Shown piece after piece: positions 15,317-18,031 of a stretch of DNA of 23,602 bases. Under the pieces are notes generated by a model. It was not told where the DNA came from and did no database searches. It was given only the letters and a program-made list of their open reading frames with translations. Origin of the DNA: a virus; IMG/VR virus record IMGVR_UViG_3300040807_000681, positions 1 through 23,602 of that record; one strand, written 5' to 3'. Position 1 is the stretch's first letter. Every line of letters begins with the position of its first letter. The position numbers were made by a program, and so were the translations under genes.

Positions 15317-15928
15317 ATGCCATATGTAGATGTATTTCCTTCGGCTGTGTCAGTAGATAATATTGGCAGAGAGTTTACAGAAGAAGAAACCAAACTTTGC
15401 GAGCAAGAATTTGAAGTTGCTATGCATAATATTGGCAACATGATGGGATCAGATCAGTATGTCTTAAATAGGCCTGAGTTATCTAATATACGACAGTTTA
15501 TACAACAAAAATTAGATGAATATCTACATGAAGTATATGCACCCCATAATGACTTAGAAATATATATTACTCAAAGTTGGTTTAGCTGGCTAACACCTGG
15601 ACAACATTTCCACGAGCACCAACATCAAAATAGCTTAGTATCAGGTTGTCTTTATTTTAGTGCAGACAGAAACCAAGATGCTCTTATTCTACACAAAAAA
15701 GAATTTCAGCAAATCTATATTCCAACCGCACCTGAAAATACAAACTTATGGAATGCGCAGATGGCAAATATTCCTGTAGCAACAGGAGATATAGTTTTAT
15801 TTCCGTCTAAGATTACTCATAGTGTTGCACCAACACAAGGAAAACATTTGCGAACAACACTTGCATTTAATAGTTTTATAAAAGGCAATATTAGAGAAGG
15901 CCTCCATCTTTTAGATTTAGACCTATGA
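15317..15928 (+). CDS. 2OG-Fe(II) oxygenase (phage type)
   Basis: 203 residues, starting one base after the previous stop. The layout matches the putative 2OG-Fe(II) oxygenase family common in marine phages (PF13759-like). There is an N-terminal recognition part (VDVFPSAVSVDNI), then WFSWLTPGQHFHEHQHQNS with metal-binding His at about 101/103, LVSGCLYFSAD, and GDIVLFPSKITHSVAPTQG with the distal His168. R179 (HLRTTLAFN) would bind 2-oxoglutarate. The usual HxD/E acid is not obvious, so the second ligand is uncertain. The substrate is unknown; such enzymes hydroxylate proteins, nucleic acids or small molecules. It directly precedes an iron-sulfur protein, with which it may share an iron-dependent pathway. 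Confidence 0.8.
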   Translation: MPYVDVFPSAVSVDNIGREFTEEETKLCEQEFEVAMHNIGNMMGSDQYVLNRPELSNIRQFIQQKLDEYLHEVYAPHNDLEIYITQSWFSWLTPGQHFHEHQHQNSLVSGCLYFSADRNQDALILHKKEFQQIYIPTAPENTNLWNAQMANIPVATGDIVLFPSKITHSVAPTQGKHLRTTLAFNSFIKGNIREGLHLLDLDL

Positions 15929-15929
15929 T

Positions 15930-16796
15930 ATGCAAGAAACTATTGACTTTGAAGATATAAGAAAACTATTTGACGACACATGGGACGTTGGATATCTTAG
16001 TCCCGAACATTTATTACAATGCGCACATTCACCAGTTAAGAATAAATTTCATGTGTATGGTGTAGACTACACAAATAATACACATTTCAAAAATCTATTT
16101 AATTCAGTAGTCCTAGTAAAAACAGGTCATACATGGGATTACAGTCATTACGACGAAGCCAAAGACATTATGTCAAATAGCGGCATTGTTGGCTGGTATC
16201 CTTCTTACACTAATTACAAACAGGCAGTAATACATGCAGGTTTAGGTGTTCGAGCAAAAAATAGTCTTGTTTATAGTTTCAAGTTTGGATTTGATTGTCA
16301 TGTATGCATGATAAGTTTCCAACCTACTATTGTAAATTATCCTGATAGAAGTAAAAAACGTAACTACGGACTTTGGAAACATTGCGAAGGTTGTGATGAT
16401 TGTATTGTTAAATGTCCTGCAAAAGCAATACACTATGACGACAAAGAACCTCCGTGGATTGATTCAGGAGCATGTGAAAATTTTATATTTTTTGGTAAAG
16501 ATGAAAATGTTCCAAATGTTATTAACTATTGGCATAAAAACGTACATCCTGAAATTCCACAGCAAGTAATTGATAATATCAAAACTGTAAAAGATATGAA
16601 AGACGCAATAGGCGATATTAAATGGGACACAAATGGCTATAGTTACGATGGTAACGTCACCCGTAAAGACGGTGAAATAGTTTATGTACCACACTGTAGA
16701 GAATGCACAAGCCAGCCGCGGTGCAGCAAATGGGAAGGAAACTATCCTTATGATGGATCAGACCCAAAAGAACAAATGATAAGGATTATCAAATGA
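15930..16796 (+). CDS. QueG/reductive-dehalogenase-like iron-sulfur protein
   Basis: 288 residues, starting one base after the oxygenase stop. Residues ~97-135 (KQAVIHAGLGVRAKNSLVYS followed by FKFGFDCHVCMIS) resemble the 'GxGxxGKNxLLxxxxYG' region of epoxyqueuosine reductase QueG and reductive dehalogenases. A classic [4Fe-4S] motif follows: C152-x2-C155-x2-C158-x3-C162-P (CEGCDDCIVKCPAKAI). Further Cys at 123, 126, 182, 256, 259 and 265 could ligate a second cluster. Compared with QueG (~350-380 aa) the N-terminal cobalamin-binding part is short, so B12 use is uncertain. Possible role: a reductive step in modified-nucleoside metabolism or another redox reaction. Fe-S protein: sure; exact function: unsure. 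Confidence 0.65.
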   Translation: MQETIDFEDIRKLFDDTWDVGYLSPEHLLQCAHSPVKNKFHVYGVDYTNNTHFKNLFNSVVLVKTGHTWDYSHYDEAKDIMSNSGIVGWYPSYTNYKQAVIHAGLGVRAKNSLVYSFKFGFDCHVCMISFQPTIVNYPDRSKKRNYGLWKHCEGCDDCIVKCPAKAIHYDDKEPPWIDSGACENFIFFGKDENVPNVINYWHKNVHPEIPQQVIDNIKTVKDMKDAIGDIKWDTNGYSYDGNVTRKDGEIVYVPHCRECTSQPRCSKWEGNYPYDGSDPKEQMIRIIK

Positions 16797-17527: not shown

Positions 17528-17651
17528 GCGAATACTCACAAACGTAGTATTACTTTTGTATTTCTGGTTTATTGATGAAGATCCAGAAATGGCTAGACTA
17601 AAAAAGAAAGGTGAACAAACATCTGTTATTGAAATAGAGGTTGACATCTAG
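17528..17651 (+). pseudogene. Out-of-frame continuation of the small membrane ORF
   Basis: The frame ending at TAG 17649-17651 encodes a hydrophobic segment (ILTNVVLLLYFWF) followed by a charged tail (IDEDPEMARLKKKGEQTSVI). It has no ATG/GTG start with an RBS before its membrane segment; the only internal ATG (17589) would leave a 20-residue peptide. That favours a frameshifted 3' half of the gene starting at 17459. Its last codons also carry the -35 box of the tmRNA promoter. A rare start such as TTG cannot be excluded. Confidence 0.35.
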
Positions 17652-17671
17652 TATTACTTGTGTTATAAATA
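17641..17671 (+). promoter_or_regulatory. tmRNA promoter: sigma70 elements overlapping a late-type TATAAATA
   Basis: TTGACA (17641-17646), an exact 17-bp spacer and TATAAA (17664-17669). The -10 is also the full T4-like late octamer TATAAATA (17664-17671). Transcription would start near 17676, just before the tmRNA acceptor piece. The double match could keep the RNA expressed both early, by host sigma70, and late, by the phage sigma. Confidence 0.7.
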
Positions 17672-17677
17672 GTATGT

Positions 17678-17737
17678 AACGTTGAAACAAGTTGAACGGC
17701 GAGCAAGACCCGGGTTCGAATCCCGGCTACTCCACCA
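17678..17737 (+). ncRNA. ssrA: tmRNA acceptor piece (T-arm and CCA end)
   Basis: The T-arm is CCGGG (17710-17714), loop TTCGAAT (17715-17721) and CCCGG (17722-17726). The acceptor 3' strand CTACTCC and then ACCA (17734-17737) follow. E. coli tmRNA has the same order (GCGGG-TTCAACT-CCCGC-CAGCTCC-ACCA, from memory). Nothing upstream forms a D-arm or anticodon arm, so it is not an ordinary tRNA. The 5' end is a guess. Confidence 0.88.
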
Positions 17738-17844
17738 TAAACACACTGCTTTGAACTAGAAGTGGCAAGGCTACGAATAAACTAAGTTACCTCCTACCAT
17801 AGAGGTTACGCAGAGGAAGATACTGCAAGTAGTGTGTTTTTGAT
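17738..17844 (+). other. tmRNA intervening (processed-out) segment
   Basis: About 107 bases separate the CCA end from the coding piece. Its ends are complementary: AAACACACTGCT (17739-17750) with AGTAGTGTGTTT (17828-17839), 12 pairs including one G-U. This makes a closing stem that stacks near the acceptor stem. Within it ACCTC and GAGGT form a small hairpin. In permuted tmRNAs this segment is removed by RNase processing to leave two RNAs. Confidence 0.75.
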
Positions 17845-18005
17845 GGGGTAGAGTTGGGATCGATTGGCGAACTATTAGATGAGTGGAGTTACCGGGATGT
17901 AAGCGCCGTTACCGCGAACAAACTTAATAATTGCAAACGCAAATTATTCATTAGCAGCCTAAGGGCAGCTACGAGGTAGTTAGACCTTGTTACCAAACAT
18001 AGCAG
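17845..18005 (+). ncRNA. ssrA: tmRNA coding piece
   Basis: It starts with GGGGTAG, which closes the acceptor stem with CTACTCC. The D-loop analogue GGGATCGATTGG follows, then about 65 bases that may fold as a pseudoknot (TTAC...GTAA with CGG/CCG), then the tag ORF and a short structured tail. CGCCGTT (17904-17910) is complementary to AACGGCG (17695-17701) in the acceptor piece and could be an inter-piece helix. The 3' limit is set just before the terminator stem and is approximate. Confidence 0.85.
17933..17962 (+). other. tmRNA tag reading frame (ANANYSLAA-stop)
   Basis: Codons GCA AAC GCA AAT TAT TCA TTA GCA GCC TAA encode ANANYSLAA; with the Ala from the charged tmRNA the tag is AANANYSLAA. 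It aligns with the E. coli tag AANDENYALAA and ends in the LAA recognised by ClpXP-type proteases. The resume codon GCA follows AATAATT, comparable to the A-rich stretch before the E. coli resume codon. Confidence 0.9.
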
Positions 18006-18031
18006 GAAAGCACCTTCGGGTGCTTTCTTTT
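18006..18031 (+). terminator. Rho-independent terminator after the tmRNA
   Basis: Perfect 9-bp stem GAAAGCACC/GGTGCTTTC closed by the very stable TTCG tetraloop, followed by TTTT. It ends the tmRNA transcript and may protect its 3' end. The next gene's RBS begins three bases after the T-run. Confidence 0.9.

Follow-up and report, generated by a model that had tools for sequence, protein, structure and literature searches.

The stretch of viral DNA analyzed here (the window; an IMG/VR virus record of 23,602 nucleotides) carries a circularly permuted tmRNA gene at 17676-17962, an assignment on which two Rfam covariance models and ARAGORN agree. RF04321 (tmRNA_permuted) matches with 91.1 bits (E 1.1e-16; cut-off 47) and RF01849 (alpha_tmRNA) with 58.7 bits (E 4.5e-14; cut-off 50), and ARAGORN calls a permuted tmRNA with the tag ANANYSLAA. 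The gene runs from a promoter through the T-arm, acceptor 3' strand and CCA to an intervening sequence (IVS), and then through the acceptor 5' strand, tag and 3' domain to a hairpin, such that the 3' half precedes the 5' half and the tag (Table 1). A preliminary description of this DNA had proposed this CCA-first order and had named RF01849 as a check; the searches place the elements where it had put them, with both models over their cut-offs. Its picture of a T4-like phage carrying the gene with its own promoter and terminator likewise agrees with the promoter and terminator-like hairpin that we find.

Table 1. Features of the permuted tmRNA locus in the window
Feature	Position	Strand	Basis
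Small upstream gene with homology to the IVS frame of L300 and L336	17146-17400	+	local alignment
Composite promoter TTGACA-N17-TATAAATA	17641-17671	+	TTGACA 17641-17646, 17-nt spacer, TATAAATA 17664-17671; exact match
First transcribed piece, 5' strand of pairing domain to CCA	17676-17737	+	RF04321 alignment, sequence, covariation in relatives
T-arm	17710-17726	+	within first piece
Acceptor 3' strand CTACTCC	17727-17733	+	within first piece
Discriminator A	17734	+	within first piece
CCA	17735-17737	+	end of first piece
IVS, 107 nt	17738-17844	+	four-way-junction RNA
IVS P1 arms	17739-17751/17827-17839	+	four-way-junction fold
IVS hairpin	17762-17766/17770-17774	+	four-way-junction fold
IVS hairpin	17786-17793/17802-17809	+	four-way-junction fold
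IVS hairpin	17810-17813/17823-17826	+	four-way-junction fold
Second piece: acceptor 5' strand, D-loop analogue, resume region, tag	17845-17962	+	RF04321/RF01849 alignments, ARAGORN
Acceptor 5' strand GGGGTAG	17845-17851	+	start of second piece
Tag reading frame ANANYSLAA*	17933-17962	+	ARAGORN; same tag in L159
3' domain after the tag, GCTACGAGGTAGTTAGACCTTGTTACCAAACATAGC, probably a pseudoknot	17963-18002	+	similar or identical stretch in L159, L166, L190, L214, L216
Terminator-like hairpin AAAGCACC-TTCG-GGTGCTTT and short T run	18003-18031	+	fold -15.5 kcal/mol

All seven acceptor-stem pairs form between GGGGTAG and CTACTCC, as the preliminary description had predicted, and they include a G3.U70 wobble; a G.U at pair 3 is the alanine identity signal. 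We counted covariation at acceptor pairs 5 and 6, the two that our search pattern left free, and across 108 distinct relatives 213 of 216 cells are paired there, as CG, UA, GC, AU and occasionally G-U. The window's score under the alphaproteobacterial model lies below that of most relatives (58.7 versus 87-144 bits), its pairing domain contains several non-standard pairs, and when the two mature pieces are co-folded the minimum-energy structure is not the tRNA-like one; their interaction in co-folding is stronger than that of most shuffles (3 of 500 as low). A nucleotide search of the tmRNA against phage records gave only short tRNA-like and chance matches, and a simple terminator scan did not list the 3' hairpin, probably since its T run is short. 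To judge by its sequence, the window's permuted tmRNA is real and functional-looking. The T-loop is tRNA-like (TTCGAAT), as against GGCGGTA or similar in most relatives, and the parts of the gene look mosaic. Downstream of the tag the clade has two types of 3' domain, one with the GCAACAGAA of the alphaproteobacterial consensus and the other, that of the window, of the GGTAGTTAGACCTTGTTACCAAACATAGC type.

The tag frame reads GCA AAC GCA AAT TAT TCA TTA GCA GCC TAA and ends in small hydrophobic residues followed by a stop; an LAA end is typical of ClpXP substrates. The longer tag originally proposed, AANANYSLAA, is thus encoded from its second residue onward, and the first alanine would come from the charged tmRNA. 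One relative, L159, has the same tag with a different IVS and a diverged backbone, and relatives in general keep ordinary, alphaproteobacterial-looking tags. A pattern for ANANYSLAA or ANDNYSLAA (TCN serine and YTN leucine codons) is absent from the genomes of 84,980 bacterial and archaeal species, the sole match encoding ANENYSLAA in a standard tmRNA, and we dropped the attempt to assign a host by matching tag, as by this pattern no species has it. SmpB was not found in 33 records, the complete Melnitz genome included, and host SmpB is therefore presumed.

The window's NrdA is ~71% identical to that of T4-like cyanophages. Scanning viral contigs with a sequence pattern yielded 41 loci, of which 38 exceed the RF04321 cut-off, and permuted tmRNAs occur in more than 100 viral contigs overall; among 50 records fetched only via relatives of two neighboring proteins, 31 carry the tmRNA gene. 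The 77-aa downstream protein had no match in a tblastn search of phage records. Upstream, 15317-16796 holds a gene for a 2OG-Fe(II) oxygenase and, after it, one whose product weakly matches 4Fe-4S ferredoxin-like domains. Mycobacteriophage tmRNAs are one-piece and not permuted. Those of Bxz1, Wildcat and others resemble the window's in being phage-borne and differ in belonging to unrelated phages (PMC4131195). A close parallel is Melnitz (Methylophilales phage EXVC044M, MZ577097), which like the window is T4-like (Kyanoviridae), carries a permuted alpha-type tmRNA with the composite promoter TTGACA-N17-TATAAATA and has a large IVS, but differs in its tag and in its IVS, which holds an unannotated reading frame. 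Its two-piece ssrA was published in 2022 in a paper that reports a glutamine riboswitch at the gene's 3' end, makes no mention of an intervening sequence and puts the number of two-piece tmRNAs in phage genomes at 53, of which 50 derive from marine or aquatic samples (PMC9004378). T4-like marine phages with a permuted tmRNA are thus already known, and the initial impression that this one is exceptional is not supported. The Rfam families RF04321 and RF01849 share the window's order, tRNA-like domain and tag region, but their consensus IVS is ~30 nt, as against the structured 107 nt of the window; as to content, one tRNA-Ala gene and one repetitive element are reported inside an IVS, with no exchangeable cassettes or small genes mentioned (PMC11915505). 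Measured against the open-access literature, the composite promoter and the exchangeable IVS cassette are new to us; both are also absent from the preliminary description.

The promoter joins two elements, TTGACA being the sigma-70 -35 box and TATAAATA the T4 late box, and it matches 11 of 12 sigma-70 consensus bases. One of our scans used TATAAATA, and promoter statistics were hence taken from tmRNAs found without the motif: every one of the 17 distinct tmRNAs retrieved solely via a neighboring protein has TATAAATA at the promoter position, against 7 of 106 other viral permuted tmRNAs. The -35 box was part of no search pattern, and of 102 distinct regions upstream of the tmRNA 87 have a perfect TTGACA 16-18 nt from TATAAATA, versus 0.1% of shuffles. 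On the window alone, two exact TATAAATA sites are no more than chance. The Melnitz genome has 25 such sites versus ~12 expected, some of them 24-63 nt upstream of gp23, gp22, gp18, gp48, gp5, two baseplate wedge genes and gp4, and it encodes a late sigma factor, a late coactivator and a sliding clamp; on this evidence TATAAATA is the T4 late promoter. Among the 25 Melnitz sites, exact TTGACA is found only at that of the tmRNA, and this together with the -35 test led us to replace a purely late promoter with a composite one. We read it as a clade-wide composite promoter that would be usable early by sigma-70 and later by the late sigma factor. The Melnitz tmRNA promoter has been described as early (PMC9004378), and our reading suggests that an early-only interpretation should be revisited.

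Folded together with the acceptor stem, the window's IVS has an MFE z of -5.5. Its family comprises 12 distinct sequences including the window, and in an alignment of 11 of them a four-way junction of 29 pairs has 99.7% of cells paired and two-sided changes at 6 pairs; this fit was reached by 0 of 500 shuffles and is lost when the partners are slid. A search of all viral contigs for the pattern of this IVS type recovered 19 loci, and all 20 occurrences, the window included, precede a permuted tmRNA 5' piece; 19 of the 20 have CCACCA upstream, and the stored stretch of the remaining one begins inside the IVS. No Rfam family gave a credible match to 17738-17844 at a permissive E-value. The conserved unpaired stretches suggest that this IVS may be more than a spacer.

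Among the 108 distinct genes of the clade, the IVS ranges from 24 to 322 nt, and in 87-99% of genes its two ends pair in the same register, most positions showing AU, CG, GC and UA; because this single register is kept with varied pair types, the arms form a conserved helix, an extension of the acceptor stem. What lies between them differs in kind, the 95 distinct IVSs falling into about 51 clusters. Four relatives (L189, L214, L216 and L233) have mature tmRNAs that are 100% identical and IVSs that are unlike: a 62-aa ORF in L189, a 72-nt sequence in L214 and a 29-nt hairpin in L216 and L233. Conversely, the window and L368 share an almost unchanged IVS core at 60% mature identity. Backbone and IVS are thus inherited separately. 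These relatives are metagenomic contigs; assembly chimeras are disfavored because several IVS-backbone combinations were recovered from more than one sample and an ORF-bearing IVS is also present in the cultured Melnitz. Minimal IVSs of 24-33 nt are the commonest class, and most non-coding interiors are no more stable than shuffled ones; we accordingly rejected the idea that all IVSs are structured RNAs, and only the window's family is well supported as such. In two interiors (L343 and L256) the IVS arms enclose stretches that resemble a T-arm and look like an inserted tRNA, decayed or unusual in form; weak ARAGORN scores led us to drop their identification as intact tRNAs. Six otherwise different IVSs (L311, L313, L333, L341, L208 and L325) have CTGATAAA in common near the 3' arm, possibly marking another RNA family.

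Several IVSs contain small genes. One family (family A, MEIIWHILLTVCSG...) lies in the IVS of five relatives (L189, L210, L323, L252 and L267) and occurs as a free-standing gene immediately before the tmRNA in Melnitz (gene 85) and L319; another, family B, lies in the IVS of L192, L317, L327 and L335 and is free-standing in L269. Homologues outside any IVS also exist for the ORFs in the IVSs of L159, L284 and L337, and the window's own small upstream gene aligns with the IVS frame of L300 and L336 with a local score of 107-108 in one frame and 16-21 in the others. In every comparison within an IVS-ORF family pN is below pS (for example pS 0.34/pN 0.01, pS 0.44/pN 0.08 and pS 0.16/pN 0.03), and because most within-family differences are silent per site, these ORFs look like selected protein genes. 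The Melnitz frame (MFKWLSKTRLVVITRDYFRERNRKADAKIPKYLSGTRSVYDGG...; L364 3208-3427, MZ577097 ~45999-46218) and that of L159 run through the GGGG cut site with no stop before it, so processing would leave a reading frame without a stop. Selection on the ORFs says that the IVS proteins probably matter somewhere, and strict RNA conservation says likewise of the window's IVS RNA. The IVS turns out, on this comparison, to be an exchangeable slot, occupied in relatives by various structured RNAs or by complete small protein genes; the comparison set consists of phages, and such exchange might also occur in bacteria.

We conclude that the gene in the window is very probably a phage-encoded, two-piece permuted tmRNA of alphaproteobacterial type with an exchangeable IVS slot, and we infer the following course for its expression. 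Host RNA polymerase, with sigma-70 early and the phage late sigma factor late, would start at about 17676 and produce one precursor, in which the acceptor stem and the IVS arms would form a single long helix. RNase P and host 3' processing enzymes would cut at GGGG and after CCA to release the IVS, and the two mature pieces would stay together by pairing. Host AlaRS would charge the tmRNA and host SmpB would bind it, and the charged tmRNA would rescue stalled ribosomes and add ANANYSLAA. The functions raised in the preliminary description, rescue during host mRNA decay and redirected tagging, are plausible. Because the IVS would be discarded, it could serve as a landing slot whose interior may be almost anything provided that the arms pair, and recombination between the conserved flanks would swap RNA elements and small genes in and out. 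More tentatively, the IVS may be a dedicated cargo slot: swapped genes and RNAs would be co-transcribed with the tmRNA from an early and late promoter and freed as separate RNAs by tRNA-processing enzymes, and in L159 and Melnitz processing would yield a non-stop mRNA, itself a substrate of the tmRNA from the same transcript.

The same locus could be viewed as an ordinary phage tmRNA acquired from an alphaproteobacterium, with a meaningless, fast-evolving spacer whose apparent cassettes are the product of drift. Such a view accommodates the short unpaired loop of the Rfam consensus IVS, the prevalence of minimal IVSs and the unremarkable stability of most interiors, but we consider it quite improbable: the window's IVS is kept with compensatory changes across backbones only 60% identical, several IVSs contain selected ORFs, and unrelated IVSs sit on identical backbones, beyond what drift can give. 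This double dissociation of backbone and IVS largely refutes it. Decay of the tmRNA itself, which would make the window copy a non-functional, neutral relic, is highly improbable; the covariance score, lower than in relatives, and the unusual, shortened tag fit such a history, but the acceptor stem, G3.U70, CCA, T-arm, resume region, LAA-ended tag, promoter and hairpin are all intact, and the tag recurs in another phage, L159, whose backbone has diverged.

We also think it unlikely that the main role of the tmRNA is to redirect host proteolysis, as a decoy or tag-switcher, and not to rescue ribosomes. Its tag keeps the LAA end of ClpXP substrates and the tags of relatives are ordinary, against which stand the absence of the tag pattern from all 84,980 species and the reported inhibition of tmRNA by a phage tmRNA reduced to its tRNA-like domain (PMC4131195).

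The exchangeable slot that we describe has a parallel in T4-like genomes. T4-type mobile promoter/stem-loop cassettes are small exchangeable modules that lie between genes, behind early promoters, whereas the slot in the window lies inside an RNA gene. Here a protein gene or RNA element sits within that portion of a split RNA gene which would be cut away, and it is exchanged independently of the RNA itself. Since this nesting is found in marine phages with a cultured member, the expression of the nested genes, any job of the spacer RNA and the stage of infection at which ribosome rescue is needed are all directly testable.
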